Positions 23,477 through 45,664 of a DNA stretch of 64,000 nucleotides are shown here, in pieces. The DNA lies in contig NZ_PGEN01000001.1 of the NCBI RefSeq assembly GCF_002797435.1, forward strand, positions 3,966,501 through 4,030,500. Reading direction: 5' to 3'. The first letter of the stretch is position 1, and every line of letters begins with the position of its first letter. The translations under genes and the position numbers were made by a program. The notes under the pieces were generated by a model, which did not search any database, was not told the origin of the DNA, and saw only the letters and a program-made list of their open reading frames with translations. The stretch is from Sphingomonas koreensis. GTDB taxonomy: Bacteria; Pseudomonadota; Alphaproteobacteria; Sphingomonadales; Sphingomonadaceae.

Positions 23477-23477
23477 G

Positions 23478-23567: not shown

Positions 23568-23577
23568 AAGAACCGAC

Positions 23578-25281
23578 ATGACCATCCAGGGCTGGGGGCT
23601 GATCCTCGTCTTTGTCGCCATTCTCGTCGCGCTCGCGAAGCCGGTGGGGATGTGGCTGTTCGCGCTCTATGAAGGCCGCCGCACGCCGCTCCACGTCGTG
23701 CTGGGGCCGGTCGAGCGGGGTTTCTACAAGCTTGCCGGGGTCGATCCCGCGGCGGAGCAGGGCTGGCGCCGCTATGCCATCCATATGCTGCTGTTCCAGC
23801 TGGCGACCTTCCTGTTCACCTATGCCGTGCTGCGCCTGCAGGGCGTGCTGCCGATGAACCCGCGCGAGCTGGCGCCGGTCGGCGCGGACGGCGCGTTCAA
23901 CACTGCGATCAGCTTTACCACCAACACCAACTGGCAATGGTATGCGGGCGAAGTCGCACTGAGCAACTTGAGCCAGATGCTCGGCCTGGTCATCCACAAC
24001 TTCCTCTCCGCCGCGACCGGCATCGCCATCGCCTTCGCGATCTTCCGCGGCTTTGCGCGCCGGGAAAGCGGCACGGTCGGCAATTTCTGGGCCGATCTCA
24101 CGCGCGTGACGCTCTATCTGCTGCTCCCGGTCTGCATCGTCTATGCGACCTTCCTGATCGCCAGCGGCGTGCCGCAGACCTTCGCCGCGATGATCGACGC
24201 CACCACGCTCGAAGGTGCGAAACAGTCGATCGCACTCGGCCCGGTCGCCTCGCAGGAGGCGATCAAGATGCTCGGTACCAATGGCGGCGGCTTCTTCAAC
24301 GCCAACTCGGCGCATCCGTTCGAGAACCCGACCGCGCTTACCAACCTCGTCCAGATGCTGTCGATCTTCGTGATCGGCGCAGGCCTCACATGGACCTTCG
24401 GCAAGGCGGTGGGCAACCCGCGCCAGGGCTGGGCGATCCTGTCGGCGATGCTGGTGCTGTTCCTCGCCGGCGTCAGCGTCACCTACTGGGCCGAGGCCGC
24501 GGGCAACCCGAACCTGCATGCGCTGGGTGCGATGGGCGGCAATATGGAGGGCAAGGAAGTTCGCTTCGGCATTGCCGCCAGTGCGCTCTTCTCGGTCATC
24601 ACCACCGCGGCATCGTGCGGCGCGGTCAATGCGATGCACGACAGCTTCACCGCGCTGGGCGGCATGATCCCGCTGTTCAACATGCAGCTGGGGGAGATCG
24701 TGATCGGCGGCGTCGGCGCGGGCATCTACGGCTTCCTGCTGTTCGCCATCCTCGCGGTGTTCGTCGCGGGCCTGATGGTCGGCCGCACACCCGAATATGT
24801 CGGCAAGAAGATCGAAAGCCGTGAGGTCAAGCTGGCGGTGCTCGCCATCGCGATCGTGCCGCTCTGCGTGCTCGGCTTCACCGCGCTGTCCGCCGTCCTT
24901 CCGGCGGGCCTGGCCGGGCCGCTCAACAAGGGCCCGCACGGCTTCAGCGAGATCCTCTACGCCTATAGCTCGGCAACCGGGAACAACGGTTCGGCCTTTG
25001 CCGGCCTCACCGCGGGCACGCCCTTCTACAACGGCTTGCTCGGCGTCGCGATGTGGCTCGGCCGGTTCTTCATGATCGTGCCGGTGCTCGCCATCGCGGG
25101 CAGTCTTGCCGCCAAGAAGTACACCCCGGCCACCGCGGGCTCGTTCCCGACCACCGGACCGCTGTGGGTGGGCCTGCTCGTCGGGATCATCCTGATCGTG
25201 GGCGGCCTGACCTTCCTTCCCAGCCTCGCGCTCGGCCCGATCGCGGATCATCTCTCGATGATCAACGGCCAGCTCTTCTGA
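23578..25281 (+). CDS. kdpA: Potassium-transporting ATPase channel-like subunit KdpA
   Basis: KdpA binds and translocates potassium in the inner membrane. The 567-residue product is close to the usual length and shows the four selectivity-filter segments: [41 protein letters not shown] and [12 protein letters not shown]. About ten membrane helices are evident. It starts ten bases after kdpF and is followed by kdpB after eleven bases. Confidence 0.97.
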
Positions 25282-25292
25282 GGACGCATTCC

Positions 25293-27320
25293 ATGACGAC
25301 CAAGACGATGTTCTCGGGCGAGCTGATCCTTCCGGCGATCGGCGACGCCTTCAAGAAACTGAACCCGCGGGATCTGATCAAGAACCCGGTGCTGTTCACC
25401 ACCGCGGTGGTGGCACTGCTGCTGACGGTGCTGCTTGCGCTGGGCGGGGAGAGGCTCTCGATCCCCTTCCAGGCGCAGCTGATCGTGTGGCTGTGGCTGA
25501 CCGTGCTGTTCGGCACCTTTGCCGAGGCGCTGGCCGAGGGCCGGGGCCGGGCGCAGGCCGCGTCGCTGCGCGCCACCAAGTCCGAGCTTCAGGCCAAGCG
25601 CCTGATCGGCACGGGTGAGGCGTGGGAGCTGGTCGGCGCGGCCCGGCTCGAGCGGGGCGAGGTGGTGCTGGTCGAGACCGGCGACCTGATCCCCGCCGAT
25701 GGCGAGGTGATCGAGGGTGTGGCCTCGGTCAACGAGGCGGCGATCACCGGCGAAAGCGCGCCGGTGATCCGCGAGGCGGGCGGCGATCGCTCGGCCGTCA
25801 CCGCGGGCACGCGCGTCATCTCCGACCGGATCAAGGTGCGCGTGACGCAGGAGCCGGGACAGGGCTTCCTCGATCGCATGATCGCGCTGGTCGAGGGTGC
25901 CGAGCGCCAGAAGACCCCGAACGAGATTGCCCTCACGATCCTGCTCGTCGGCCTGACCATCATCTTCCTGATCGCGGTCGCGACCATCCCCGGTTTCGCC
26001 AGCTATGCCGGCGGCAGCATCCCGGTCGCGATCCTCGCCGCGCTGCTGATCACCCTCATCCCCACCACCATTGCCGCGCTGCTGTCGGCGATCGGCATTG
26101 CGGGCATGGACCGGCTGGTGCGCTTCAACGTGCTCGCCAAATCGGGCCGCGCGGTCGAGGCGGCGGGCGATGTCGACGTGCTGCTGCTCGACAAGACCGG
26201 CACGATCACGATCGGCGACCGCCAGGCGAGCGAGTTCCGCCATCTCGCGGCGGTACAGGTCGACGACCTTGCCCGTGCCGCGCTGCTCGCAAGCCTTGCC
26301 GACGAGACGCCCGAGGGCCGTTCGATCGTGACGCTGGCGCGCGAGAAGTTCGGCATCTCGGTGCCGAACCTGCCCGCTGGCGCCGAAGTGATCCCCTTCA
26401 CCGCGCAGACCCGCATCTCGGGCGTGAAGGTCGAGGGGACGCTGATCCAGAAGGGGGCAGTGGATTCGGTGCTTCGCGCCAATCCCGGCCTGGGCGACAC
26501 GCCTGCCGCCGCGGAACTGCGCAAGCTGACCGACGAGATCGCCCGCGCCGGCATGACGCCGCTCGCGGTGGCCAAGGACGGGCGACTGCTCGGCGCGGTC
26601 GCGCTCAAGGACGTGGTCAAGGCCGGGGTGCGCGAACGCTTCGCCGAGCTGCGCCGCATGGGCATCCGCACGGTGATGATCACCGGCGACAACCCGCTCA
26701 CCGCCGCGGCGATCGCGGCCGAAGCGGGGGTCGATGACTTCCTCGCCGAGGCGACGCCCGAGGACAAGCTGGCGCTGATCCGCAAGGAACAGGCGGGCGG
26801 CAAGCTCGTCGCGATGTGCGGCGACGGTACCAACGACGCGCCCGCGCTCGCCCAGAGCGACGTCGGCGTGGCGATGAACACCGGCACCCAGGCGGCGCGC
26901 GAAGCGGGCAACATGGTCGATCTCGACAGCGATCCGACCAAGCTCATCGAGATCGTCGGCCTCGGCAAGCAGCTGCTGATGACGCGCGGGGCGCTGACGA
27001 CCTTCTCGGTCGCCAACGATGTGGCGAAGTATTTCGCGATCATCCCGGCGATGTTCGTCACCCTTTATCCGGGGCTGGGCGTGCTCAACGTGATGGGCCT
27101 CGGCTCGCCCGAGAGCGCGATCCTCAGCGCGATCATCTTCAACGCGCTGATCATCCCGTGCCTCGTGCCGCTGGCGCTACGGGGCGTGACCTACAAGCCG
27201 ATGGGGGCGGGGCCGCTGCTCGCGCGCAACCTCTCGATCTACGGCCTTGGCGGCCTGGTCGCACCGTTCATCGGCATCAAGCTGATCGACCTCGCCGTCA
27301 CCGGCCTCAACCTCGCCTGA
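25293..27320 (+). CDS. kdpB: Potassium-transporting P-type ATPase subunit KdpB
   Basis: KdpB hydrolyses ATP to drive potassium uptake through KdpA. I start at ATG 25293 ([20 protein letters not shown]), eleven bases after kdpA and matching the family N-terminus; the frame is open further upstream inside kdpA. The 675-residue product has the TGES actuator motif in [11 protein letters not shown], the phosphorylated Asp300 in DKTGTIT, and the hinge motif [16 protein letters not shown]. Length is normal for the family. Confidence 0.97.
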
Positions 27321-27331
27321 GGACAATAGAC

Positions 27332-27916
27332 ATGCTTACCGACCTCAAATCCGCTCTGCGCCCGGCGATCGTGCTGACATTGCTATTCGCTGCGCTGCTC
27401 GGTCTCGCCTATCCCGCCCTGCTCACCGGCATTGGTCAGGCGGTCTTCCCGCATCAGGCCAATGGCAGCCTGATCCGAGAGGGAGACCGCGTGATCGGCT
27501 CCGAACTGATCGGCCAGAAGTTCGCGGGCGCGGGCTATTTCCACGGCCGCCCCTCCGCGGCGGGCAGTGACGGCTACGACGCTGCCGCCTCCGCCGGCTC
27601 CAACCTCGGCCCGACATCGCAAGCGCTGATCGATCGCGTGAAGACCGATGCCGATGCCATCCGCAACGCACCAGCCAATTCGGTCCCAACCGACCTGGTG
27701 ACGACCTCCGCCTCGGGGCTTGACCCCCATGTGAGCCCCGAGGCGGCTCTTTTTCAGGTCGATCGCGTCGCCAGAGCGCGCGGGATCGCACCGGAAAAGC
27801 TGCGGGCGCTGGTGGAGCAGCATCGCGAAGGCGCGTTGCTTGGCTTCCTTGGCGAGCCGCGGGTGAATGTCCTCGCGCTCAACCGCGCGCTCGACCAGAT
27901 GACGGCCGGGCGCTAA
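27332..27916 (+). CDS. kdpC: Potassium-transporting ATPase subunit KdpC
   Basis: The 194-residue product has one N-terminal membrane helix (about 11-30) and a periplasmic domain with [20 protein letters not shown] and the conserved C-terminal block [20 protein letters not shown]. KdpC stabilises nucleotide and potassium binding in the complex. It starts eleven bases after kdpB and is followed by kdpE after nine bases. Confidence 0.96.
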
Positions 27917-27925
27917 GCCCCGGGG

Positions 27926-28621
27926 ATGGCATTGCCGACCAAGGTTCTGATCGTCGAGGATGATGTCCACATCCGCCGCCTGCTCCGCGCCGCCCTCCAG
28001 CGCGCGGGGCATGCGGTGGTCGAGGCTGCGACTGCGCGCGAGGGGCTGTCGCTGCTCGACATCGACAAGCCCGACGCGGTGCTGCTCGACCTCGGCCTGC
28101 CCGACCGCGACGGGTTGGAGCTGATCCAGCCGATCAAGGCGCGCTCGACCGCCACGCTGCTGGTGGTCTCCGCGCGCGAGGATGTGGCGGAAAAGGTCGC
28201 CGCGCTCGATCTCGGCGCCGACGATTATCTGACCAAGCCCTTTGACACCGACGAGCTGCTCGCGCGCATTCGCACCGCGCTGCGTCACCGGCTGGCGAGC
28301 GATGCCGAACAGGCGACGGTGTCGCTGGGCGAGGTCGAGATCGACCTGACCCATCGCCGTGTGAAGCGGGCGGGGGAGGAAGTCCATCTCTCGCCCAAGG
28401 AATATGACGTCCTCGCCGAACTGGCGAAACGCCCCGACCGGGTGATCAGCCACGCACAATTGCTGCGCACCGTCTGGGGCCCGGCGCATGAGGGCCGCGT
28501 CGACTATCTGCGTATCGTCGTCCGCAACCTCCGCCAGAAGCTCGAGGCCGACGCCAGCCGCCCCGCGCTGATCCGCAACGAACCGGGCGTCGGCTACCGG
28601 CTGGTCGCCCCGCAGGCCTGA
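27926..28621 (+). CDS. kdpE: OmpR-family response regulator KdpE
   Basis: The 231-residue product has a receiver domain with E11/D12/D13, phospho-acceptor Asp55 (LLDLGLPDRDG) and Lys in YLTKPFDTDELL, then a winged-helix domain ending RNEPGVGYRLVAPQA. It lies nine bases after kdpC in the same operon, so phosphorylated KdpE would positively control its own gene. Its partner kinase KdpD is encoded divergently at 20590-23244. Confidence 0.94.
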   Translation: MALPTKVLIVEDDVHIRRLLRAALQRAGHAVVEAATAREGLSLLDIDKPDAVLLDLGLPDRDGLELIQPIKARSTATLLVVSAREDVAEKVAALDLGADDYLTKPFDTDELLARIRTALRHRLASDAEQATVSLGEVEIDLTHRRVKRAGEEVHLSPKEYDVLAELAKRPDRVISHAQLLRTVWGPAHEGRVDYLRIVVRNLRQKLEADASRPALIRNEPGVGYRLVAPQA

Positions 28622-28657: not shown

Positions 28658-28671
28658 TGTGAACGTTCACA
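28658..28671. promoter_or_regulatory. LacI-type operator (perfect palindrome) before the GH16 gene
   Basis: TGTGAACGTTCACA is a perfect 14-base palindrome with the central CG step typical of LacI-family operators. It ends 21 bases before the GH16 ATG. A possible promoter TTGCAA-N17-ATCTTG (28631-28659) places the operator over the -10/+1 region. The same core recurs at 33070-33083 and 33159-33170. Confidence 0.75.
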
Positions 28672-28692
28672 GTGCCGAGGGGAGGGTAGGCG

Positions 28693-29544
28693 ATGTTCGT
28701 CACGTTTGCGCTGGCGCTGCAATCGACCCTGAGCGCGACCAACGTCTCCGCCGACGTGCCCATGGTCGCGCCGACGACCAAGCCCAGCTTCGCCGACGAG
28801 TTCGACGGGCCCCGGATCGACACCGGTAAATGGCTGTTCGACACGCACCGCAACAAGACCGGCTGGTACAATAACGAGCTGCAATATTACGCCGACGGCC
28901 GGCCCGAGAATGCCCGGATCGAGAAGGGCGCACTGGTGATCGAGGCGCGGCGGGAAGCGCTCGAGAGGGCGAAGGACTGGGGCGGGCAGGCCTACACTTC
29001 GGCCAAACTCGTGACGCGCCAGCGCTACGGCTACGGCTTCTACGAGATCCGCGCCAAGCTGCCGTGCGGGCGCGGCATGTGGCCGGCGATCTGGATGCTG
29101 CCGACCGACGGCAAATGGCCTGAAGGCGGCGAGATCGACATCATGGAGATGGTCGGCTGGGACGCGAACGTGATCCACGCGACCGTCCACAGCTCCGCAT
29201 TCTACCACGTCAAGGGAACGCAGCGCGGGGCGCAGGTGAGGCTGCCCACGGCTTGTACGCAATATCACACCTACCAACTCGACTGGCGGCCGGATTCGAT
29301 CACGATCGGCATCGACGGGCGTGGACATATGCGGGTGAAGGACGATCAGCCCGGTGGTGCGGCGGCATGGCCGTTCACCAAGCCGTACGAGCTGATCCTC
29401 AACCTGGCGGTCGGCGGCGACTGGGGCGGGCAGAAGGGCGTGGACGATACCGCGCTGCCGCAGCGCATGCAGGTCGATTACGTGCGCTACTGGGCTAGCG
29501 CCGATGCCGGATCGCCGGGACCAGCAGCCCGCCCAGCAGAGTAA
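28693..29544 (+). CDS. GH16 family endo-beta-1,3-glucanase (laminarinase-like)
   Basis: The product has 283 residues, starting after a GGGGAGGG ribosome-binding site. An N-terminal segment of about 20 residues looks like a short export signal. The mature part begins PSFADEFDG, has WYNNELQYY and the catalytic motif GGEIDIMEM with nucleophile Glu147, Asp149 and acid/base Glu152. These are the hallmarks of bacterial GH16_3 enzymes, which cut beta-1,3 or mixed beta-1,3/1,4 glucans to oligosaccharides. It faces the MFS transporter gene and overlaps its 3' end by 50 bases. The upstream operator places it in the LacI regulon described for 28.7-40.6 kb. Confidence 0.9.
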   Translation: MFVTFALALQSTLSATNVSADVPMVAPTTKPSFADEFDGPRIDTGKWLFDTHRNKTGWYNNELQYYADGRPENARIEKGALVIEARREALERAKDWGGQAYTSAKLVTRQRYGYGFYEIRAKLPCGRGMWPAIWMLPTDGKWPEGGEIDIMEMVGWDANVIHATVHSSAFYHVKGTQRGAQVRLPTACTQYHTYQLDWRPDSITIGIDGRGHMRVKDDQPGGAAAWPFTKPYELILNLAVGGDWGGQKGVDDTALPQRMQVDYVRYWASADAGSPGPAARPAE

Positions 29545-30739
29545 GGCCGGCCAGCACCAGCATCACCGCGCGGAAATCGTGCGGCTTGGCGAGCGCCCAG
29601 GTGAGCAGGGGCCCGATCAGCGCGGGCAGCGTGTTGGTCAGGTTGATGATCCCCAGATCGCGGCCGCGGTGGCGCGGATCGGGCAGCAACTGCATGGCGA
29701 AGCCCGAATGGAGTGAGAGGAAGGCCGCGGAGCCAAGCGCGTAGAGCGTGAACGACGAAGCCGCCATAGTCCAGTCGCGCGCGAAGGCGAGGCCGACCAG
29801 GCCCAGCGCAGCCAACAGCGCGAAGGCGATCAGGAACGGCTTCCGCTGCCCGATCCGGTCCGACCAGCGCCCCGCCAGCACCGCGACGGGTACGGAGGCA
29901 AAATAGGCGATGGTCATCAGCTGACCGAGCGGTCCCACGCTTTTCGATGCGGGGGTGTGGGGGTCGATGCTGGCGAAGTAATAGACGAGGTAGAGCCACA
30001 GCACATTGCCGGCGACCTGCACCAGCAGCCGCGATGTCCAGGCGATCGCGAGGTCGCGACCCAGCAGCGGGTCTTCCTCCGCGGCAATGGCCGCGGGCGC
30101 GGTCCGTGCGGGCGTGACGATCAGCGGCAGGATGCAGAGCAGCGCTGCGGCGAAGACGAAGGCAAGCCGTGTCGGTTCGTCGCTGAACCCGATCGCAAGC
30201 ATCAGCGCGGCGACTGCGGAGGCAAGCGGCGCGCCCAAGGCGATCAGGCCGCCGGACAGGCCCTTCTGCGAGTCGGGGACTTCGTCGGCCATGACTGCGA
30301 ACATCGGGGCAAGGACGGCGTTCAGCGCGATCTGGAACAGCACCACCGCCAGAATGATCTGCAATGGCGCGGCGGCGGCGGCAACCGCTGCAAAGGACGC
30401 GGCGAGACCGGCCAAGCCGAGGACGATCCACTTGCGCCGTCCGTTGCCGCGGGCGACCGAGCGGTCGCTGAGCCAGCCGAACAGGATGTTCGATGCGCTT
30501 GCCGCGATCGCTCCGGCGATGACGGTGGCGGTGAAGACGGCGATGCGATCGTCGCCCGCCACCTCGGCGATCTTGACCGGAAGCAGCAGCGTGAGCAGCG
30601 GCAGAAAGCCGATGACACCGCCGGCATTTGCGAGCGCGACGAGCAGGATGAAGCGAAGCGACCGTCGCCCGGACTGAAACTCGCTCGCCAACCTGCACCC
30701 CCGCGCACCGGTCGTCGCGCCCGCATGGGTCGCAGGCAC
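29495..30739 (-). CDS. MFS transporter (probable oligosaccharide importer)
   Basis: The 414-residue product has 12 predicted membrane helices. The loop motif GWLSDRSVARGNGRRKWIVL after helix 2 and GRWSDRIGQRKPFLIA in the second half are the repeated MFS signatures; they resemble glycoside/sucrose carriers of the SLC45/GPH-like type. The start is GTG 30739, 19 bases after the GH3 stop on the same strand, so it is co-transcribed with the glucosidase. Import of glucan-derived glucose or oligosaccharides across the inner membrane is inferred from context. The 3' end overlaps the convergent GH16 gene. Confidence 0.85.
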   Translation of the reverse strand: MPATHAGATTGARGCRLASEFQSGRRSLRFILLVALANAGGVIGFLPLLTLLLPVKIAEVAGDDRIAVFTATVIAGAIAASASNILFGWLSDRSVARGNGRRKWIVLGLAGLAASFAAVAAAAAPLQIILAVVLFQIALNAVLAPMFAVMADEVPDSQKGLSGGLIALGAPLASAVAALMLAIGFSDEPTRLAFVFAAALLCILPLIVTPARTAPAAIAAEEDPLLGRDLAIAWTSRLLVQVAGNVLWLYLVYYFASIDPHTPASKSVGPLGQLMTIAYFASVPVAVLAGRWSDRIGQRKPFLIAFALLAALGLVGLAFARDWTMAASSFTLYALGSAAFLSLHSGFAMQLLPDPRHRGRDLGIINLTNTLPALIGPLLTWALAKPHDFRAVMLVLAGLTLLGGLLVPAIRHRR

Positions 30740-30758
30740 CGCCGGAGCGATCGCGAAG

Positions 30759-33005
30759 CTAGGGCTTCATCGTCGCAGGGTCGAGGCTCGTCGTGAGCAG
30801 CATCGAACGATCGGTCGCATCGCGCGCGATGGCGATGCGATAGGTGCCGCCGCGGATGCGCCAGCCGGGCAGGCTGGTGTCGTAGTCGGCAAGGATGCGC
30901 GGTTCCGCGGTGAGCGTGACGCGACGCGTCTCGCCCGGCTGCAATTCGATGCGCTTGAAGGCGGCGAGGCGCATCGGGATGTTCGATCCTTCGCGGGTCA
31001 CATAGACTTGCGGCACGTCGGCGCCCGCGCGCTTGCCGGTATTGGTGACATCGAAAGCGACGGTGAGGCGTTTGCCGCCGGTGACGGCCGCCTTGCCATA
31101 GGCGAAGCTGGTGTAGCTGAGGCCATGGCCGAAGGCGAAGAGCGGCTTGTGACCCTGCTTCTCGTACCAGCGATAGCCGACATCGCTGCCCTCGACATAG
31201 TCGACCGGGAAGCTTTTGAGTTCGTAGCCGCCGGGATTGGCAGGGTTCGCCGCCGCGGCCGCCTGAAGCGCGGTGAAGGTATCGAGCCCCACCGGCTGCG
31301 GGCGCGGCGCCTGCCCCTCATGCGCGGGGAAGGTGATCGGCAGCCGGCCCGACGGATTGACCTTGCCGGTCAGGATATTGGCGATCGCCTCGCCCCCGCG
31401 CTGGCCCGGATACCAGGCCTGGACCACCGCGGGCACCCGATCGAGCCAGGGCATCGTCACCGGCCCGCCGGTGGTGAGCACGGCGACCGTCTTCGGCTGC
31501 GCGGCGGCGACCGCCGCGATCAGCGCGTCCTGATGGTTCTGGAGCCTGAGGTCGGGCACGTCCTCTGCCTCCGTCGTCCATTGGGTCGCGAAGACGATGG
31601 CGAGATCGGCGGCCTTCGCCGCATCGACCGTGGCGTTGAGGTTGCGCCCGTCGACGAACCTCACCTGCGCCCCCGGCAGAGCCTTGCGCAGCGCTTCGAG
31701 CGGGGAGGAGGCGTGATAGGTCACGCGCACGAACGAAGCCGCCGGGCCGTGCGCCAGCGGGATCTCGATCGGCGCGCCGCCGACCGACCGCACCTGGCTC
31801 GACCCGCCGCCCGAGAGCACACCCACGTCCGCGCCGCCGCCGATCACGACGATCTTCTTCGCGGTGGCGGCAAGGGGCAGGATCCCGCCCTGGTTCTTGA
31901 GCAGCACGATCCCCGCCTCGGCCGCGCGCTGCGCGACCAGCGCGTTCGCTGCATAGTCGGGAGTCTGTGCGGTGGCCGGCATCGGCGTGTCATAGGCGCC
32001 GCTCTCGATCAGGCCGGTCAGATAGCGCACGACCATGTCGTCGAGCCGCGCCATCGGCACGCGGCCGTTCTCGACGGCCTCCTTGAGCGGCGCATCGAAA
32101 TACATCGCGCGGTCGAGTTCCTGTCCCGATTGCTGGTCGAGCCCGGCCTTCGCCGCCTTTTCGGTCGAATGGACGCCGCCCCAGTCGCTCATCACCCAGC
32201 CGGAAAAGCCCCAGTCGCGCTTCAGCACCTGATTGAGCAGGAAGTCGTTTTCGCACGCCCAGTCGCCATTGACCTTGTTGTAGGCGCACATGACCGACGC
32301 CGGCTTGCCCTTTTCGATCGCGATCTGGAAGGCGAGCAGGTCGCTCTCGCGCAGCGCCGCCTCGCCGATGCGGGCGTCGAGCACCATGCGGCCGGTTTCC
32401 TGCGAATTGAGCGCGAAATGCTTGATCGTCGAGACGATCCGGTTCGACTGGACGCCAGCGATATGCGCGCCGGCCAGCTCGCCGGCGAGCAGCGGGTCCT
32501 CGCCCAGATATTCGAAGTTGCGCCCGCCCCATGGGTCGCGGTTGAGGTTGACCCCGCCCGCGAGCAGCACGTTGAAGCGCTTGGCGCGCGCCTCTGCGCC
32601 GATCATCGCGCCGCCTGCACGCGCGATCTCCGGATCGAAGGTCGCGGCGGTGGCGAGGCTGGAGGGGAGGGCGGTGGCGACGTCGCCCTTGCGCTGCTCG
32701 ACCTGGTTGGCCACGCCGAGCGACGCATCGCTCTCCCGTACAAGCGGCACGCCAAGGCGCGGATTGCCTTCGATATGTCCCGCCGACGGCACCAGTTCGT
32801 TGACCGGCTTTACCTTAGTCAGGGGCGGGAACAGGCCGTGGACCAGCGCGATCTTCTCATCGAGCGTCATCCGCGCGACGATCGATTCGGCACGGACTCG
32901 GGCGTCGGTCGCGGCGGGGACAGGCGCCTGTTGCGCAACACCCTGCGTCGCCGTGAAGGCAGCGAGCGCGCTGGCCGTAAGCAATGCGGCGATGGTCCTG
33001 CTCAT
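30759..33005 (-). CDS. GH3 family beta-glucosidase, secreted
   Basis: I start at ATG 33005 (MSRTIAALLTASALAAFTAT), which begins a signal peptide ending GVAQQ and has AGGAGAGG just upstream; the longer frame adds a segment overlapping the operator. The 748-residue product has an N-terminal GH3 barrel with the nucleophile Asp274 in GWVMSDWGG, KHFALNSQETGR, a C-terminal alpha/beta sandwich and a fibronectin-III-like tail. It would release glucose from beta-glucan oligosaccharides in the periplasm. It forms an operon with the MFS gene. One LacI-type operator lies 65-78 bases upstream. Confidence 0.93.
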   Translation of the reverse strand: MSRTIAALLTASALAAFTATQGVAQQAPVPAATDARVRAESIVARMTLDEKIALVHGLFPPLTKVKPVNELVPSAGHIEGNPRLGVPLVRESDASLGVANQVEQRKGDVATALPSSLATAATFDPEIARAGGAMIGAEARAKRFNVLLAGGVNLNRDPWGGRNFEYLGEDPLLAGELAGAHIAGVQSNRIVSTIKHFALNSQETGRMVLDARIGEAALRESDLLAFQIAIEKGKPASVMCAYNKVNGDWACENDFLLNQVLKRDWGFSGWVMSDWGGVHSTEKAAKAGLDQQSGQELDRAMYFDAPLKEAVENGRVPMARLDDMVVRYLTGLIESGAYDTPMPATAQTPDYAANALVAQRAAEAGIVLLKNQGGILPLAATAKKIVVIGGGADVGVLSGGGSSQVRSVGGAPIEIPLAHGPAASFVRVTYHASSPLEALRKALPGAQVRFVDGRNLNATVDAAKAADLAIVFATQWTTEAEDVPDLRLQNHQDALIAAVAAAQPKTVAVLTTGGPVTMPWLDRVPAVVQAWYPGQRGGEAIANILTGKVNPSGRLPITFPAHEGQAPRPQPVGLDTFTALQAAAAANPANPGGYELKSFPVDYVEGSDVGYRWYEKQGHKPLFAFGHGLSYTSFAYGKAAVTGGKRLTVAFDVTNTGKRAGADVPQVYVTREGSNIPMRLAAFKRIELQPGETRRVTLTAEPRILADYDTSLPGWRIRGGTYRIAIARDATDRSMLLTTSLDPATMKP

Positions 33006-33069
33006 GCGTTTTCCTCTCCTGATTTTCGGTGCGCCCGGTCTGGCTGCGTGCAGGCAAAACAGCATAATT

Positions 33070-33083
33070 TGGGAACGTTCACA
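33070..33083. promoter_or_regulatory. LacI-type operator before the GH3 gene
   Basis: TGGGAACGTTCACA matches the perfect operator at 28658-28671 in 13 of 14 positions. It lies 65 bases before the GH3 ATG (minus strand) and 82 bases before the site facing the TBDT, in the divergent intergenic region. Confidence 0.7.
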
Positions 33084-33132
33084 ATATCGGTTTTCCGCCA
33101 TTTCTGTAGATCGTGCACCGGGTGCGCGGCAC

Positions 33133-33145
33133 TTGACAACGTTGT
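33133..33145 (+). promoter_or_regulatory. Probable -35 element of the TBDT gene with an overlapping dyad
   Basis: TTGACA (33133-33138) is a consensus -35 box. It overlaps the palindrome ACAACGTTGT (33136-33145), which has the same AACGTT centre as the LacI-type sites but different flanks. A matching -10 would fall near 33156-33161, over the operator at 33159-33170; no good -10 consensus is visible there. The dyad may be a weaker site for the same repressor. Confidence 0.4.
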
Positions 33146-33158
33146 ACAACGGGTTCAA

Positions 33159-33170
33159 GTGAACGTTCTC
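33159..33170. promoter_or_regulatory. LacI-type operator before the TBDT gene
   Basis: GTGAACGTTCTC has the same core as the sites at 28658 and 33070, with one arm position changed. It lies downstream of the TTGACA at 33133 and 42 bases before the TBDT ATG, so a bound repressor would cover the -10/+1 region. Confidence 0.65.
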
Positions 33171-33212
33171 AACGAGTGCGGATTCACCGTGCCGCTGAAG
33201 GGGAGGATGAGG

Positions 33213-36200
33213 ATGCGGGGCACGACTCGCTCAAATGCGCGCCTGAACAATGCGCGCCTTTCGATTCGACTGGCGATCGGGGCTTCGAGCCTCGCGATCG
33301 CCGCGACTCCGGCACTGGCTCAGGACACGCAGGACGCGCCGCCTCCGACCGAGGAAGCGGAAGAGGTTCTCGTCACCGGCATCCGTGCCAGCCTCGCGCA
33401 GGCGATGACGATCAAGCGCGACGCGCAGGGCGTGGTCGATGCGATCTCCGCCGAGGATATCGGCAAATTTCCCGATACGAATCTGGCGGAATCGCTTCAG
33501 CGCATCACCGGCGTTTCGATCGATCGTTCGAACGGCGAGGGTTCGTTCGTCACGGTCCGCGGCTTCGGCCCGGAATTCAACCTGGTGACGCTGAATGGCC
33601 GGCAGATGCCGACATCGGGTCTTGGCGACGGCGCCAGCGCGCCGGCCACGCGTTCCTTCGATTTCGCCAATCTCGCGTCCGAAGGGATTGCCGGGGTCGA
33701 GGTCTACAAGACCGGCCGTGCGGCGATCCCTTCGGGCGGCATCGGTTCGTCGATCAACATCAAGACGCCGCGCCCGCTCGACCGGCCCGGTCTGCGCGGG
33801 AGCATCGCGGTCAAGGGCGTGCTCGACAGTTCTTACAATCAGGGCGACGAGATCACGCCCGAAGTGTCGGGCATCTTCAGCACGACCCTTGCCGACGACA
33901 AGGTGGGGATCCTGATCGCGGGCTCGTACCAGAAGCGCAAGGCGAGCAACAACGACTACAAGACCGACTGGCGCGACGGCTATCTGGGCAGCGAGAACAA
34001 CTGGGGCTCGCTCGCGCAGCCGGGCGACCCGCGCTACGCCAACATCACCAACCGGCCCGATGCGAATGACGTGTACGAGGTCGCGCAGAACGGATCGTAC
34101 AACCTCAACGATATCGAGCGCGAGCGGATCAACGGCCAGCTGGTGCTGCAATTCCGCCCGATCGAATCGCTGACCGCGACGTTCGACTACACCTATTCCC
34201 GCAATACGGTGGAGGTGCGGACGAGCAGCGTCGGCATCTGGTTCAACCACAACGACACATCGAGCGCTTGGACCGACGGGCCGGTCGCCGGACCGGTCTT
34301 CTATTCGGAAGCGTTCGGCGCGAACGAGCGCAAGGACCTGTCGTACAGCGGCGCGCTGACCGCGAACCGCAGCGAGAATCACTCGTTCGGCGGCAACCTG
34401 GCCTGGGAGGCGCCTGGCGGCGTTACTGCGCAGCTCGATTTCCATCATTCGACCGCGACGTCGAAGCCGACCAACAAGTACGGCACCAGCGTATCGGTAG
34501 GGAACGCGGTATTCGGCCTGGCGAACCAGCGGATCAACTTCGACACCTATCTGCCGGTCATCACCACCAGCTTCCACCCTGGCTTCAATCCACTCGACAC
34601 GTCACAGATCACCCCGACCGGCAACGCGTTCCGCAACGCCTATTTCCGGGACGAGATCAATCAGGCGCAGCTGAAGGCGCGCTACGATCACGAAGGCGGG
34701 CTGCTCGACAGCATCGATTTCGGCGTCTCGTACGTCGAGAACAAGGTCCGTTCGGCCTATGGATTCCTTCAGAACGAAACCTGGAGCGGGGCAGGGCCGG
34801 CTTCGGACATTCCCGACGATATCTTCAAGCTGGTGAGCCTGCCCGACAAGTTCCGCGGGCTGGACGGCGCAGGCAATATCATCCCCAGCCTCTACAGCTT
34901 CGATTTCGAGCGGATGGTCGATATCATCGAGCAGCGCTACGGCACCTGCAGCCGTCCGCAGACGGGCAAGGCGCCGGCGGGAAGCTGCCTGGCCGATTTC
35001 ACGATCGACCGGCGCATCACCGAGAAGACGCTGTCGCCCTATGTACAGGTCGCGGGCAAGTTCAGCGCCTTCGGAAACGACGCGCATGTCGTTGCCGGTC
35101 TTCGATACGAGCATACCAGCATCGATTCGATGGCGCTGGTGCCGATCCCCAACGGCACGTCGTGGGACGCGGCCAACGAATTCTATATCTCCTATTCGGG
35201 CCAGTCGGATTTCTCGCGCTTCAAGGGCGATTACGAGCTCTGGTTGCCCGCCATCGACTTCGACATCTCGCCGTTCGAGAATGTGAAGCTGCGCGCTTCG
35301 TACAGCCACACCATCACCCGTGCGGACTATGCGAGCCTCCAGGGCGGTCTGACGCTCGACACCCAGTTCCGTATCGCGTTCGGCGGCGGCAGCCGCGGCA
35401 ACCCAGGTCTGCTTCCGTACAAGTCGAAGAATATCGATCTGTCGGCGGAATGGTATTACGGGCCGAGCAGCTACATCTCGGTCGGCTTCTTCAACAAGGA
35501 TGTCGAGAACTTCATCGCGCAAGACCGCGTGACCCAAACTGCGTTCGGTCTGCGCACCGTGGCGGGCGGGCCGCGCTACCAGGCGGCGCTCGCGGCACTC
35601 GGCTCCAACGCCAGTGCGCAGGATATCCGCCAATATATCTTCGTGAACTTCCCGGGTTCGACCCAGCGGACCGGCGTCGATCCGTCTGGCTACATCACCG
35701 GCAAGATCTTTGCGTTGCCCGAAGATCCGCTGGTGCCGTTCCAGGTCAACACGCCGGTCAACAACGACCGGACGGCGAACCTCTACGGCTTCGAATTCGC
35801 GGTCCAGCACAGCTTCTGGGATACCGGCTTCGGGGCCATCCTCAACTATACGATCGTCCGGGGCGATGCGACCTACGACAACAGCAAGCCGTCCTCGGTG
35901 ACGCCGCCTCAGTTCGCGCTGACCGGCCTCAGCGACAGCGCGAACGCGGTGCTGTTCTACGACAAGAACGGTATCCAGGCCCGCGTCGCGTACAACTGGC
36001 GCCAGAAATTCCTGTCCGGGACGGGGGCCAACCCGTCCTATGTCGAGGATTATGGCCAGATCGACGCCAGTGCGAGCTACGAGTTCATGCCCGGGCTGAC
36101 CGTATTCGGCGAGGTGATCAACCTGACGGGCGAAAGCCGGCGCGGACATCGCCGGTCGGATCGCAACGTCTATTTCGCCTCGCCTGGCTATGCCCGCTAC

Positions 36201-36227
36201 GCGGCCGGTGTCCGTTTCAATTTCTGA
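33213..36227 (+). CDS. TonB-dependent receptor for glucan oligosaccharides
   Basis: I start at ATG 33213, six bases after GGAGG; ATG 33207 is too close to it. The 1004-residue product has a signal peptide ending ATPALAQ, the TonB-box-like stretch EEVLVTGIRASLAQ, a plug domain with AISAEDIGKFPDTNLAESLQ and VTVRGFGPEFN, and a 22-strand-type barrel ending YARYAAGVRFNF. The plug start VVDAISAEDIGKFPDTN is characteristic of the large carbohydrate-type receptors of sphingomonads and Caulobacter. By context it imports laminarin-type oligosaccharides across the outer membrane. A terminator follows directly, and the sapC-like gene lies downstream of that. Confidence 0.92.
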   Translation: MRGTTRSNARLNNARLSIRLAIGASSLAIAATPALAQDTQDAPPPTEEAEEVLVTGIRASLAQAMTIKRDAQGVVDAISAEDIGKFPDTNLAESLQRITGVSIDRSNGEGSFVTVRGFGPEFNLVTLNGRQMPTSGLGDGASAPATRSFDFANLASEGIAGVEVYKTGRAAIPSGGIGSSINIKTPRPLDRPGLRGSIAVKGVLDSSYNQGDEITPEVSGIFSTTLADDKVGILIAGSYQKRKASNNDYKTDWRDGYLGSENNWGSLAQPGDPRYANITNRPDANDVYEVAQNGSYNLNDIERERINGQLVLQFRPIESLTATFDYTYSRNTVEVRTSSVGIWFNHNDTSSAWTDGPVAGPVFYSEAFGANERKDLSYSGALTANRSENHSFGGNLAWEAPGGVTAQLDFHHSTATSKPTNKYGTSVSVGNAVFGLANQRINFDTYLPVITTSFHPGFNPLDTSQITPTGNAFRNAYFRDEINQAQLKARYDHEGGLLDSIDFGVSYVENKVRSAYGFLQNETWSGAGPASDIPDDIFKLVSLPDKFRGLDGAGNIIPSLYSFDFERMVDIIEQRYGTCSRPQTGKAPAGSCLADFTIDRRITEKTLSPYVQVAGKFSAFGNDAHVVAGLRYEHTSIDSMALVPIPNGTSWDAANEFYISYSGQSDFSRFKGDYELWLPAIDFDISPFENVKLRASYSHTITRADYASLQGGLTLDTQFRIAFGGGSRGNPGLLPYKSKNIDLSAEWYYGPSSYISVGFFNKDVENFIAQDRVTQTAFGLRTVAGGPRYQAALAALGSNASAQDIRQYIFVNFPGSTQRTGVDPSGYITGKIFALPEDPLVPFQVNTPVNNDRTANLYGFEFAVQHSFWDTGFGAILNYTIVRGDATYDNSKPSSVTPPQFALTGLSDSANAVLFYDKNGIQARVAYNWRQKFLSGTGANPSYVEDYGQIDASASYEFMPGLTVFGEVINLTGESRRGHRRSDRNVYFASPGYARYAAGVRFNF

Positions 36228-36240
36228 GCCTCCTCCCCAG

Positions 36241-36269
36241 CCACCCTCTTCGGAGGGTGGCCTTTTTTT
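36241..36269 (+). terminator. Rho-independent terminator after the TBDT gene
   Basis: CCACCCTC-TTCG-GAGGGTGG is a perfect eight-base stem capped by a UUCG tetraloop (36241-36260). It is followed by CC and seven T (36263-36269). It lies 13 bases after the TBDT stop and 28 bases before the SapC ATG, so it should reduce expression of the downstream genes relative to the receptor. Confidence 0.92.
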
Positions 36270-36296
36270 GTTACGGGTGGGGAAACTGGAGAGGCA

Positions 36297-37016
36297 ATGG
36301 GCGAAACGGTGACGACGACGGGTCACGCACTGCTGACGGCGGAGGCGCATCGCGAGCTGAGCGTCCGCCGCGACCGCGGGCCGGCGCTGGGCGATGCGGT
36401 GATGAGCTGCGTGACCATGCCCGCCGAGTTCCGGCGGGTGCAGGTGCATTATCCGATCCTGTTCCGGCGCAATGCCGAGCGCGACGCGTTCACCGCGATC
36501 GCGCTGTTCGGCTTCCAGGAGGGCGAGAACCTGTTCCTGGAAGGCGGGATGTGGGGTGCGGACTATGTGCCGCTCGCGATCGATATCCAGCCCTTCCTGA
36601 TCGGCGGGACGGCCGATGCGCGACAGGTGCATGTCGATCTGGCCAGCCCGCGGATCGGCGCGGGCGAGCGCGTGTTCGACGATGCGGGACAGCCGACCCC
36701 CTATCTCGAGGCGGTCGCCGGGCAATTGGGCGAGCTCGACGAAGGCTATCGCGCGTCGGGCGATTTCTTCGCGGCGCTGCGGCGATACGAGCTGCTCGAG
36801 CCGTTGACGCTGGAGATCACGCTGGACGACGGATCGGTCAACCGGCTGGTCGGGTTTCATGTGATCGACGAGGCACGGCTGGCTGCGCTGGATGCCTCAG
36901 CGCTCGGCGCGCTGCATGCGGAGGGGCATTTGATGCCCATCTTCATGGCGGTCGCGTCGATCGGCAATTTCAACGCGCTGGTCGCGCGCAAGAACCTGCG
37001 GCTGAGCAATGGCTGA
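36297..37016 (+). CDS. SapC-family protein of the TBDT locus
   Basis: The 239-residue cytoplasmic-looking product has the SapC-like pattern: a region around VHYPILFRRN, ALFGFQEGENLFL, and a C-terminal FMAVASIGNFNALVARKN. The name comes from a Campylobacter surface-layer-associated protein; the biochemical role is unknown. It starts after a GGAGAGG and overlaps the cupin-like gene by eight bases. In sphingomonads, Caulobacter and xanthomonads such genes recur next to carbohydrate TBDTs together with cupin-like and halogenase-like genes, which is the arrangement here. Confidence 0.85.
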   Translation: MGETVTTTGHALLTAEAHRELSVRRDRGPALGDAVMSCVTMPAEFRRVQVHYPILFRRNAERDAFTAIALFGFQEGENLFLEGGMWGADYVPLAIDIQPFLIGGTADARQVHVDLASPRIGAGERVFDDAGQPTPYLEAVAGQLGELDEGYRASGDFFAALRRYELLEPLTLEITLDDGSVNRLVGFHVIDEARLAALDASALGALHAEGHLMPIFMAVASIGNFNALVARKNLRLSNG

Positions 37017-38040
37017 AGCCGATCCCGGCGCCCTGAGCGGACTGGCCACGGTGCCGGAGATCGCGGTGGCGAGCGCGGCCGAACTCGATGCGCGCTTGCG
37101 TACCGCCGGGGCGCCGTTCGTGGTGCGCGGGCTGGTCGTGGACTGGCCGCTGGTCGCTGCGGGCAAGTGGTCGGGCCAGGCTGCGCGCGACTATCTGCTG
37201 GGCAAACATCGCGACGTGCCCTTCACCGTCGCGGTCGGCAATGCGGCCGGGGATGCGCGGATCTTCTACGATCCTGCAATGGCGGTGAACTTCCGGACCC
37301 TGCGCGGGCGGCTGAGCGACATTTTCGCGGACATCGATGCGGCGGAGAACGATCCTGCCGCGCCGCCCATCTATGTCGCATCGACCGACGTGCACGACTA
37401 TTTCGACGGGCTGCACGCCGAGAATCATGTCGCGCTGGGCGACCGCCGCTGCCGGGCGGGCATCTGGATCGGCACGCGCACGCGGATCGCGGCGCATAAC
37501 GATTTCCCGGACAATCTCGCCTGCGTCGCGGTGGGGCGGCGGCGTTTCACGCTGTTTCCGCCGGATCAGTTCGGCAATCTCTATCTGGGGCCGCTCGACA
37601 ACACACCTGCGGGCCGCGCAGTGAGCATGGTCGATTTCGCGGAGCCCGATTTCGCTGCGCACCCCAGGTTCCGCGAGGCGCTGGCGCACGCCCAGGTCGC
37701 CGAACTGGAGCCCGGTGACGCGATCTTCATCCCTTCGATGTGGTACCACAATGTCGAGGGGCGCTCGGCGTTCAACGTGCTGATCAACTATTGGTGGCGC
37801 GAGACGCCCGGCTGGCTTGGCCAGCCCGAGGATGCGCTGCACCATGCGCTGCTCGCGATCCGCGATCTGCCGCGGGAGGAGAAGGCGCGGTGGCGCGCGC
37901 TGTTCGATCATTATGTCTTTGCCAATGGGGATGACGTGACGGAACATCTGCCCGAAGGAGCGCGCGGCATTCTCGATCCGTTGACACCCGAAACCGCGTC
38001 GCGCATCCGCGCCTATCTGCTGCGGCAGCTCAGCCAATGA
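37009..38040 (+). CDS. Cupin-like (JmjC/FIH-type) protein, probable Fe(II)/2-oxoglutarate oxygenase
   Basis: The 343-residue product has the Cupin_8/JmjC-like fold. The metal triad is visible as His163-x-Asp165 (AAHNDFPDN) and His247 (MWYHNVEGRS), 84 residues apart, and the C-terminal half carries RFTLFPPDQFGNLYLGP. Proteins of this type hydroxylate side chains of other proteins or small molecules. It starts eight bases before the SapC stop, and its stop overlaps the halogenase ATG (ATGA). The substrate is unknown; a link to the receptor or imported glycans is only contextual. Confidence 0.85.
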   Translation: MAEADPGALSGLATVPEIAVASAAELDARLRTAGAPFVVRGLVVDWPLVAAGKWSGQAARDYLLGKHRDVPFTVAVGNAAGDARIFYDPAMAVNFRTLRGRLSDIFADIDAAENDPAAPPIYVASTDVHDYFDGLHAENHVALGDRRCRAGIWIGTRTRIAAHNDFPDNLACVAVGRRRFTLFPPDQFGNLYLGPLDNTPAGRAVSMVDFAEPDFAAHPRFREALAHAQVAELEPGDAIFIPSMWYHNVEGRSAFNVLINYWWRETPGWLGQPEDALHHALLAIRDLPREEKARWRALFDHYVFANGDDVTEHLPEGARGILDPLTPETASRIRAYLLRQLSQ

Positions 38041-39533
38041 CGGAGAAACGCCCCACGCGCGTCGTCATTGCCGGTGGCGGCACCTCGGGCTGGATGGCCG
38101 CCGCCGCGATCAGCCGGACGATGGGCCGCACGGTCGACCTGACCTTGGTCGAATCCGAGCAGATCGGTACGATCGGAGTGGGGGAGTCGACCATCCCGCC
38201 GCTGGTCAACTTCAACCGCATCCTCGGGATCGGCGAGGCCGAGTTCATGGCCGCGGCGCAGGCGACGTTCAAGCTCGGCATCCTGTTCGACAACTGGAAG
38301 CATGACGGGCACAGCTATTTCCACAGCTTCGGCCTGTCGGGGAAGGATCACTGGTCGGCGGGGTTTCAGCATTTCTGGCTGTACGCGCGCTCGCGAGGCT
38401 GTCCCGAGCCCTATGACGACTATTGCCTTGAGCTTGCTGCGGCGATGCAGGGCAAGTTCGCGCACCTGCCGCAGGACCGGATGAACTATGCCTATCACGT
38501 CGATGCGACGCTATACGGCCGTTATCTGCGCAAACTCGCGGAGGAGTCCGGAACGAAGCGCGTCGAGGGCAAGATCCAACGCGTTGAATTGAATGGAGAA
38601 ACCGGCGACATCGCCGCCCTGCACCTCGATGGTGAGCGGCGGATCGAGGGAGATGTATTCGTTGATTGCACCGGTTTTCGAGGCCTGCTGATCGAAGGCG
38701 CGCTGCATGCCGGGTTCGAGGATTGGGGCCATTGGCTGCCCAACGACAGCGCCATCGCGGTGCAGGCGAGGCATCTGGGGCCACCGCAACCCTATACGCA
38801 GGCGATCGCGCACGATGCCGGCTGGCAATGGCGCATCCCGCTCCAGCACCGGATGGGCGCGGGCATCGTCTATTCGAGCGGTTATCTGTCGCGCGACGAG
38901 GCGCATCACCGGCTGATCTCGACCGTGGGCGAACCACTGATCGAGCCCTTTGATATCAAGTTCCGCGGCGGCGTGCGGCGAAAGCAATGGTATCGCAACT
39001 GCGTCGCGATCGGCTTGTCGGGCGGCTTTGTCGAGCCGCTGGAGGCGACGACGGTTCACCTGATCCAGCGCGCGGTGCTGCGCTTCGTGCGGCTGATGCC
39101 CAACGGCCGGGTAAGCGAGCGCGATGCTGCCGAGTTCAACGAGCAGCAGCGCCAGGATATCGAGCAGATCCGCGACTTCGTGATCCTGCATTACAAAGCG
39201 ACGGACCGGCGTGACAGTGCCTTCTGGCGGCACGTTGCCGCAATGCCGGTGCCGGATTCGCTGTCTCAGAAGATCGAGCTGTTCCGCGAGACCGGCCGTA
39301 CCTTCCGCAGGAACGAGGAACTGTTCGCGGAGAATAGCTGGGTGCAGGTGATGATGGGGCAGGGGATCGATCCGCAGAGCTGGCACCCGATCGCGGAGAA
39401 GCTGTCCGACGAGGAACTGATGCGCCTGATGTCGACGCTGCGTGAGGACGTGACGCGAACCGTGGCGACGCTGCCCGAACATCATACCTATGTCGCACAA
39501 TATTGCGGCGCGGCCGATCCGCTGGCGGCCTGA
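38037..39533 (+). CDS. Flavin-dependent tryptophan-halogenase-like protein
   Basis: The 498-residue product has an N-terminal FAD-binding motif (IAGGGTSGWMAAAAISR), the segment GVGESTIPPL, the catalytic Lys at residue 79 (FKLGILFDNW, the same number as Lys79 of PrnA as I recall), and the halogenase motif W263-x-W265-x-I-P (GWQWRIPL). It therefore retains the key residues of FADH2-dependent halogenases. No flavin reductase gene and no secondary-metabolite genes are nearby; it lies in a glucan-uptake operon with SapC and cupin-like genes. The true substrate in this recurrent setting is not known to me. Confidence 0.88.
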   Translation: MTEKRPTRVVIAGGGTSGWMAAAAISRTMGRTVDLTLVESEQIGTIGVGESTIPPLVNFNRILGIGEAEFMAAAQATFKLGILFDNWKHDGHSYFHSFGLSGKDHWSAGFQHFWLYARSRGCPEPYDDYCLELAAAMQGKFAHLPQDRMNYAYHVDATLYGRYLRKLAEESGTKRVEGKIQRVELNGETGDIAALHLDGERRIEGDVFVDCTGFRGLLIEGALHAGFEDWGHWLPNDSAIAVQARHLGPPQPYTQAIAHDAGWQWRIPLQHRMGAGIVYSSGYLSRDEAHHRLISTVGEPLIEPFDIKFRGGVRRKQWYRNCVAIGLSGGFVEPLEATTVHLIQRAVLRFVRLMPNGRVSERDAAEFNEQQRQDIEQIRDFVILHYKATDRRDSAFWRHVAAMPVPDSLSQKIELFRETGRTFRRNEELFAENSWVQVMMGQGIDPQSWHPIAEKLSDEELMRLMSTLREDVTRTVATLPEHHTYVAQYCGAADPLAA

Positions 39534-39549
39534 AGGAACGAACGAACAC

Positions 39550-40596
39550 ATGGCACGCCGCAAACAGGCCGTCACGATCCGGCACGTCGCCGCCGATGCT
39601 GGGGTTTCGCTCCAGACGGTGAGCCGCGTGATCAACAAGGAGCCGAATGTCCGGCCCGAAATGGCCGAGCGTGTCCGCGCGTCGATCGCCAAGCTGGGCT
39701 ATGTCCCCTCGATCGCGGCGCAGCGAATGAGCGGATCGCGGTCCTATCTCATCATGGCGCTCAACGATCGCGAGCGCACGATCGACGGCTGGCGTGCGCG
39801 CGACGGCACCGACTGGGTCGATCAGATGTTGCTCGGCGGCATGCTGACCTGCGCCGAACATGGTTACCGACTGATCGTCGAGCTGGTCGACACACATAGC
39901 GACCATATCGAGCGCGAGCTGAGCGCGGCCCTTGCGGCGCTGCAGCCCGATGGCGTGATCCTGACTCCGCCGCACTCGGCCAATCCCGCGATTCTGGCCT
40001 TGCTCGACGACGCGCATATTGGGCTCGCCCGGATCGGGTCGCTGGCCGAAGGGCCAGGGTTCCGGCTGACGATGGGGGACGATATCGCGGCAGGGCTCGC
40101 CACCCGGCATCTGATCGAGCTGGGCCATGAGCGGATCGGGCTGATCGCCGGGCCGGACGAGTATGAACTGAGCGGCTGGCGTGTCGATGGCTGGCGCGCG
40201 GCGATGGCCGAGGCAGGGCTGTCGATTGAAGGACTGCTGGCGCAAGGCGACTTCTCGCGTCAGTCGGGCCGTGCCGCAGCCCCGAGCCTGCTGGAGGCGG
40301 GGGCGACTGCGATCATCGCAAGCAATGACCAGATGACGCTGGGAACGCTGGAAATCGCGCGCGAGCGCGGGCTGGAGGTACCTGGTGATCTCTCTCTCAT
40401 CAGCTTCGACGACACGCCGATCGCAAGATTTCACCACCCGTCCCTGACCGCGGTTACGCAACCCATCGCTGATGTGACGGCGCGCGCCGTCGAACTGATC
40501 ATCGCCGAACGGGGCGGGGAGGCCGCACCAGACGGGCCGGTTGTGGTTTTCCCGTCACTGACTGTGCGCCAATCGACAGGGCCGCGCCGGGGCTGA
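39550..40596 (+). CDS. LacI-family transcriptional regulator of the glucan locus
   Basis: I start at ATG 39550 (MARRKQAVTIRHVAADAGVS); an upstream in-frame ATG at 39490 would lie inside the halogenase gene. The 348-residue product has the N-terminal helix-turn-helix and hinge helix (about 8-57, with VSLQTVSRVIN) and a periplasmic-binding-protein-like effector domain with SNDQMTLGTLEIARERG and SFDDTPIARFHHPSLTAV. The hinge helix inserts at a central CG step, matching the AACGTT core of the three operators at 28658, 33070 and 33159. It lies 16 bases after the halogenase gene, so it is probably co-transcribed. The effector is probably a beta-glucan-derived sugar (inference). Confidence 0.92.
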   Translation: MARRKQAVTIRHVAADAGVSLQTVSRVINKEPNVRPEMAERVRASIAKLGYVPSIAAQRMSGSRSYLIMALNDRERTIDGWRARDGTDWVDQMLLGGMLTCAEHGYRLIVELVDTHSDHIERELSAALAALQPDGVILTPPHSANPAILALLDDAHIGLARIGSLAEGPGFRLTMGDDIAAGLATRHLIELGHERIGLIAGPDEYELSGWRVDGWRAAMAEAGLSIEGLLAQGDFSRQSGRAAAPSLLEAGATAIIASNDQMTLGTLEIARERGLEVPGDLSLISFDDTPIARFHHPSLTAVTQPIADVTARAVELIIAERGGEAAPDGPVVVFPSLTVRQSTGPRRG

Positions 40597-45619: not shown

Positions 45620-45664
45620 ATGACCACTGCATTGCTCGCCACGGTGCGCAAGTTTCTCCCGTGA
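45620..45664 (+). CDS. Possible 14-codon leader ORF overlapping kup
   Basis: ATG 45620 opens [14 protein letters not shown] and stops at TGA 45662-45664, overlapping the kup GTG (GTGA). kup itself has no good ribosome-binding site before its GTG, so re-initiation by ribosomes finishing this leader would explain its translation. The upstream AGG is about 13 bases away, which is poor. Coding status is uncertain. Confidence 0.35.

Follow-up and report, generated by a model that had tools for sequence, protein, structure and literature searches.

In Escherichia coli, the lac repressor carries a C-terminal tetramer helix and acts on two operators in a phase-dependent manner, and GalR dimers, which have no tetramer helix, contact each other across a loop between gal operators about 114 bp apart and need HU to do so; helical phasing of repressor sites is mostly known from engineered spacers in this organism. 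In carbohydrate utilization loci containing TonB-dependent receptors (CUT loci), as described in the consulted sections of PMC1790865 for the sux locus of Xanthomonas with its regulator SuxR, a TonB-dependent receptor (TBDT), a major facilitator superfamily (MFS) transporter, a hydrolase and a LacI-family repressor occur in one locus. LacI-family regulators of beta-glucoside operons have also been predicted in alphaproteobacteria, among them BglR of Caulobacterales, and tandem operators of the family were reported at 13, 22 and 32 bp, those at 22 and 32 bp being read as sites of cooperative dimers (PMC4052901, in the part used here). Here, we describe a locus of this kind in a stretch of 64 kb from Sphingomonas koreensis (NZ_PGEN01000001.1, positions 3,966,501 to 4,030,500; hereafter the window), which belongs to a genome of one contig with 4,398,689 bases. 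As in CUT loci, a TBDT, an inner-membrane transporter, a degradative enzyme and a regulator were found together.

We propose, with a probability of about 0.68, that a dimeric LacI repressor encoded at the end of this locus would act through three palindromes to keep a glycoside hydrolase family 16 (GH16) gene, a GH3-MFS unit and a TBDT cluster off until a beta-glucan sugar is present, with the dimers on operators 2 and 3 in probable contact. The sites, their locality, their conservation, their fixed place relative to a TTGAC box and the change of their spacing in steps of 11 bp are computed directly from the sequences. The features concerned are as follows.

28658-28671, unstranded: operator 1, TGTGAACGTTCACA, 21 bp before the GH16 start codon
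33070-33083, unstranded: operator 2, TGGGAACGTTCACA, on the GH3 side of the divergent pair, identified by sequence match
33133-33138, plus strand: TTGACA, the likely TBDT -35 box; its first base and that of GAACGTTC in operator 3, further downstream, are 28 bp apart
33158-33171, unstranded: operator 3, AGTGAACGTTCTCA, on the TBDT side, 88 bp (8 x 11) centre to centre from operator 2
39550-40596, plus strand: LacI-family regulator of 348 aa with the helix SLQTVSRVIN, identified by Pfam and orthologue alignments

The operators are even palindromes with a central CG around a GAACGTTC core, which makes them putative LacI sites, and the three matching palindromes reported by a first-pass annotation of this DNA were borne out. 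A genome search for the motif located the exact form GNGAACGTTCNC at five places, three of them in this locus and none in an intergenic region elsewhere; the remaining two lie inside open reading frames (ORFs; positions 1283-2188 of L001, plus strand, 301 aa, and 1451-2500 of L005, minus strand, 349 aa), ORF status being no proof of coding. A wide regulon of exact sites was rejected, as every exact place outside the locus falls within an ORF. An ORF-coverage test of 20 fetched loci proved non-discriminating, as long frames run across the three operators here too, the DNA being rich in GC. The one-mismatch pattern is not rare in the window (4 found against a shuffled mean of 3.3, three of the four exact), and the eight-base core occurs 30 times genome-wide against 20 for the reversed control, so that only the longer form is informative alone. 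Allowing up to three mismatches, the 14-base genome search returned 52 places against 23 for the reversed pattern among the matches listed, and regulon members with weaker sites may exist elsewhere in the genome. The sequence ACAACGTTGT near the TBDT promoter has one occurrence in the genome.

Conservation of the motif was assessed in 201 sequences, consisting of the window, 120 loci and 80 loci of a second, named collection, in which the best LacI relatives are mostly Sphingomonas. The 120 loci fall into three sets of 40: one from the 63 further family genomes in which LacI gave a match, one from the 84 further genus genomes (best first, with gaps) and one fetched because its loci bear an operator pair. 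A TBDT orthologue at a minimum of 50% identity was present in 152 of the 201 sequences, resulting in 103 unique upstream regions, 97 of which contain GAACGTTC, while the next palindromic octamer was found in 25. Leaving out the 40 pair-fetched loci, the exact core was retained in 81 of 87 unique regions and the core or a one-off form in all 87; the offset from TTGAC to the site was 27-29 bp in 76 of the 81 regions with an exact core.

Using a threshold of E <= 1e-60, LacI orthologues were detected in 64 of 199 family genomes and 85 of 151 genus genomes. Within the same 151 genomes, the exact operator pair accompanied the LacI orthologue in 40 of 85 cases and was found in 0 of the 66 genomes without one. 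The recognition helix reads [LM]QTVSRV[IV]N in 146 of 148 unique LacI orthologues (144 by pattern, two by eye). As the genome encodes 11 LacI domains over the family cut-off, this regulator included, the palindromes might be read by a DNA-binding protein other than the local LacI, an explanation that we regard as scarcely credible given the distribution of the pairs and the finding that all eight paralogue helices readable among the ten (starting with FK, KK, TA, AM, AM, MP, QP and IA) are unlike LQ. A twelfth, sub-threshold LacI-domain match in L032 resembles a TetR-type helix-turn-helix.

The first-pass annotation had assigned uptake, depolymerisation and hydrolysis to one local LacI. This received comparative support, as motif and regulator are conserved together, no exact site lies outside an ORF elsewhere in the genome, the offset to TTGAC is fixed and the helix is conserved and differs from those of the eight readable paralogues. 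The claim requires modification for the MFS gene, which has no site of its own: its ORF begins 19 bp past the GH3 stop on the common strand, and operator 2 therefore probably serves both genes.

The regulator itself exceeds the cut-offs of PF00356, PF13377 and PF00532, corresponding to an N-terminal helix-turn-helix and a periplasmic-binding-like effector domain, which confirmed the annotated LacI-family gene at the end of the locus (stop at 40596). The listed orthologues begin to align in the first few residues from the 39550 start, with another in-frame ATG located at 39490. The half-site TGTGA is similar to the one in the lac operator, and lac repressor has YQTVSRV. Residue 341 of the 348 in the Sphingomonas protein is the last to align with lac repressor (1lbg), at residue 327 of that 360-residue chain; the regulator ends seven residues on, making a lac-like tetramer unlikely.

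In a search for two cores 45-106 bp apart, the paired form was matched in 76 of 295 genus genomes, or 75 after removal of one genome whose sole pair was judged to be a chance occurrence. The reversed-pattern control gave 2 and 0 genomes in two genus searches and 2 and 5 genomes in two family searches. Pairs without TTGAC inside had been removed by eye before counting (G453 contig 13, G446, G206 at 962395, G095 and G193). The spacings, with the number of genomes in brackets, were 45 (2), 55 (3), 56 (9), 57 (8), 65 (3), 66 (17), 67 (8), 68 (2), 74 (3), 76 (1), 77 (4), 80 (1), 87 (1), 88 (7), 89 (4), 91 (1) and 100 bp (1). The unique pairs of more than 20 bp in the TBDT upstream regions coincidentally also numbered 75, including one from another genus (L088) and leaving out the 12-bp pair of L251. 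TTGAC lies between both sites in all 75, and 70 of these pairs are spaced within 2 bp of a multiple of 11, compared with about 45% expected under free phase.

R at 11 bp amounted to 0.82 over the 75 unique pairs and likewise over the 59 pairs outside the pair-fetched loci. Control distances in the same loci gave lower values, with R at 11 bp of 0.32 for operator 3 to the start codon, 0.26 for operator 3 to the aligned TBDT start and 0.17 for operator 2 to the divergent start (n = 75, 75 and 73), and best values over 9.5-12 bp of 0.41, 0.28 and 0.21; these controls are rough, as start codons were called mechanically and two of the three distances are less variable.

Such a pattern could also arise by shared ancestry, if a few founder spacings that by chance lay 11 bp apart had spread by descent without constraint. 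The spacing classes do partly follow the TBDT tree, and the 17 distinct spacings alone give a lower R of 0.69, a value reached by 1 of 20,000 random sets (the null's period grid was coarser, so this p is slightly too small). However, R stayed at 0.82 after thinning to 35 dissimilar inter-site sequences, the 95% value for jittered sets being 0.43, and the observed maximum of the thinned pairs was reached by none of 5000 sets with a jitter of at most 5 bp. When three parsimony schemes were applied to a quick tree of the TBDT proteins belonging to the 75 unique pairs, they placed 18-19 spacing jumps of at least 5 bp, of which 15-17 fall within 2 bp of a multiple of 11. Among path-disjoint pairs differing by at least 5 bp, 9 of 12 did so (p = 0.0003). 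An explanation by ancestry only is thus disfavoured and, in our estimation, highly improbable.

The 11-bp steps indicate that operator 2 matters to operator 3, or one promoter to the other, via a factor that depends on the helix face. The main rival to a contact between repressors is promoter geometry: the regulon would stand, each operator would keep its place relative to the promoter core on its side, and it would be the two polymerases, or an activator or bending protein common to both promoters, that must sit on one face of the DNA. The fixed offset of the TBDT-side operator to TTGAC makes operator phase and promoter phase inseparable on that side, as this explanation would have it. In contrast, no conserved -35 box was recognised by eye on the GH3 side, and in genome G101 (L064) a 68-bp pair is flanked on one side by LacI and a halogenase-like stretch and on the other by an MFS gene, in a locus that gave no TBDT match. 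The LacI-family pairs at helical steps of 22 and 32 bp had moreover been read as cooperative binding, as far as the part of PMC4052901 used here goes. We consider promoter geometry unlikely as the sole source of the steps, and the spacing suggests that bound repressors contact each other across the promoter, either by looping or by cooperative binding, with a GalR-like contact between dimers as the likeliest form by analogy. A more specific proposal, which we advance tentatively and at slightly less than even odds, is that a LacI without the lac tetramer helix bridges operators 45-100 bp apart, that the genus kept this bridge while the DNA changed mostly by whole turns, and that a helical repeat of about 11 bp in vivo can be read from some 19 natural insertions and deletions.

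Several observations weigh against contact between phased dimers, or against its generality. The spacing departs from the 11-bp register in five of the 75 unique pairs (74 bp three times, 80 and 91 bp). Fewer than two exact cores are held by 27 unique regions, comprising seven with a degenerate distant partner (56, 58, 87, 88, 89, 89 and 102 bp, only five of the seven within 2 bp of a multiple of 11), nine with a partner at 12 or 18 bp, and eleven, out of all 103, with a single site and no clear partner. Ten unique regions assigned to other genera by name or code have tandem cores at 12 or 18 bp, some of them one-off, and these distances are not multiples of 11. The long pair is nearly confined to the genus, as the 397 family genomes contained only two from other genera with TTGACA inside (G127 with 45 bp and G101 with 68 bp); other genera contributed no such pair in the longer range, a range in which the reversed pattern hits five genomes. 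The exact pair is also absent from 45 of the 85 genus genomes with a LacI orthologue, and the counts of spacing jumps depend on parsimony over one quick tree. Finally, the regulator has no counterpart of the lac C-terminal tetramerisation helix, so that looping would call for some other contact or for a protein that bends DNA.

The mechanism that we nevertheless favour may be outlined as follows; the LacI as binder, the repression, the operons, the dimer-dimer contact and the inducer are inferred. A LacI dimer would bind the palindrome TGTGAAC-GTTCACA at three places and switch off GH16 from operator 1, the GH3-MFS unit from operator 2 and the TBDT-SapC-cupin-halogenase-lacI cluster from operator 3, until a sugar derived from beta-glucan releases it. 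With its core starting 28 bp downstream of the first base of TTGACA, operator 3 should cover the -10 region and the start site, where plain occlusion would be enough for repression. Operators 2 and 3, which flank the TBDT -35 box at a distance of 88 bp, are predicted to lie on one helix face, and the two bound dimers would probably touch, in a short loop or another cooperative complex, turning both divergent promoters off together.

The earlier statement that no operator precedes the regulator gene holds by sequence, with the qualification that lacI starts 16 bp past the halogenase stop, at the end of the TBDT cluster. It is probably expressed from operator 3 as the last gene of this cluster and, for that reason, may need no operator of its own. 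A regulator escaping control was considered and rejected, as a same-strand gene of the locus lies less than 200 bp before lacI in 129 of 149 unique relatives. Among the other 20, an exact or one-off site occurs in the 220 bp upstream of lacI in three and is lacking in 17, which indicates that direct autoregulation is not general.

Further palindromes were noticed near the operators. The spacer between TTGACA and operator 3 contains CGTTGTACAACG at 33140-33151, which recurs in 4 of the 103 unique upstream regions (the window, L147, L148 and L187), all with 88-bp spacing, and is perhaps the site of another regulator. In 16 of the 103, a TAGCG[CGA]TA or TATCGCTC core stands between the paired operators (L156, L159, L165, L170, L171, L175, L181, L190, L212, L218-L220, L245, L254, L258 and L297); we take these cores to resemble Caulobacter xylose-type LacI palindromes, and they hint at a possible second regulator. 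In relatives from other genera, tandem cores at 12 or 18 bp occupy the TBDT promoter in place of the long pair, namely in L065, L069 and L251, as well as in L078, L098, L236, L252, L259, L262 and L266.

Read along the plus strand, the locus consists of operator 1, GH16 (plus), MFS (minus), GH3 (minus), the divergent region with operators 2 and 3, TBDT (plus), a hairpin, SapC, Cupin_8, a tryptophan-halogenase-family protein and LacI (plus). A Pfam search confirmed GH16, MFS, GH3, the TonB receptor with its plug, SapC, Cupin_8, Trp_halogenase and LacI.

28693-29544, plus strand: GH16 endo-beta-glucanase, laminarinase-like, from Pfam and structure-database matches
29495-30739, minus strand: MFS transporter (Pfam), with a 50-bp convergent overlap with GH16, probable second gene of the GH3 unit
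30759-33005, minus strand: GH3 beta-glucosidase-like enzyme, from Pfam and Protein Data Bank (PDB) matches, start at 33005 from sequence reading with AGGAGAGG upstream
33213-36227, plus strand: TBDT (TIGR01782), start at 33213 from sequence reading, 33207 also possible
36240-36261, plus strand: terminator-like hairpin with a T-run, between TBDT and SapC
36297-37016, plus strand: SapC-family protein (Pfam)
37009-38040, plus strand: Cupin_8 protein (Pfam)
38037-39533, plus strand: tryptophan-halogenase-family protein (Pfam)

With respect to the substrate, the closest match of GH16 is 6xof, a GH16 family protein, followed by laminarinases and beta-1,3(4)-glucanases, and the closest PDB matches of GH3 are beta-glucosidases; the TBDT lies above the TIGR01782 cut-off. 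Because of the GH16 and GH3 homologies, a mixed-linkage or beta-1,3-glucan is the likely substrate. The beta-glucan reading of the first-pass annotation is favoured by the same homologies, but the best NCBIfam model for GH3 is an arabinopyranosidase with a score far under the cut-off, and neither GH16 nor GH3 reached an NCBIfam equivalog cut-off.

Of the 103 unique loci, 37 have a hairpin after the TBDT like that at 36240-36261, and the genes 3' of it may be read less than the TBDT. Of the loci L147-L186, 38 show both TBDT and SapC, and in 32 of these a second halogenase-family gene (32-37% identity) was counted by eye between the two; the window has none in this interval (36227-36297). Outside the locus, Kdp potassium genes occupy 20590-28621. 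KdpD is encoded on the minus strand, ahead of KdpA, and the gene directly before GH16 encodes a regulator that is KdpE-like but under the NCBIfam cut-off. A Kup-type transporter follows the Kdp region and the glucan locus at 45661-47622.

Compared with the E. coli repressors, the regulon described here resembles the lac system in having two operators in register, with 70 of 75 pairs of the genus in step and five out of step, and differs from it in that this LacI has no C-terminal tetramer helix. The absence of that helix is shared with GalR; gal spacing is about 114 bp and the pairs here are 45-100 bp apart. Closely related genomes seem to have run the spacer experiment many times, with an alphaproteobacterial repressor that is without the known tetramer part. 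They thereby offer a ready test of dimeric LacI cooperation at four to nine helical turns and a sequence rule for spotting real operator pairs in other sugar loci. No description of this Sphingomonas regulon or of its phased pair was found in the literature searched, which was covered partially and with few terms, and the main text of PMC4052901 contains neither 'sphingomonad' nor 'aacgtt' at word starts.

As far as the sections consulted describe these systems, the locus is like sux in combining a TBDT, an MFS transporter, a hydrolase and a LacI repressor, and departs from it by another substrate, a divergent layout and an added SapC-cupin-halogenase block. Its likeness to BglR of Caulobacterales, compared by description, lies in an alphaproteobacterial LacI-family regulator with a predicted role in the use of beta-linked glucose compounds. 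In contrast to the tandem operators at 22 and 32 bp, the present pairs span 45-100 bp across a -35 box between divergent genes and vary by whole turns within one orthologous regulon. Measured against these sources, LacI-controlled TBDT loci and pairs at 22 or 32 bp are known, while no description was found, in the literature searched, of a pair of 45-100 bp that evolves by whole turns within one regulon.

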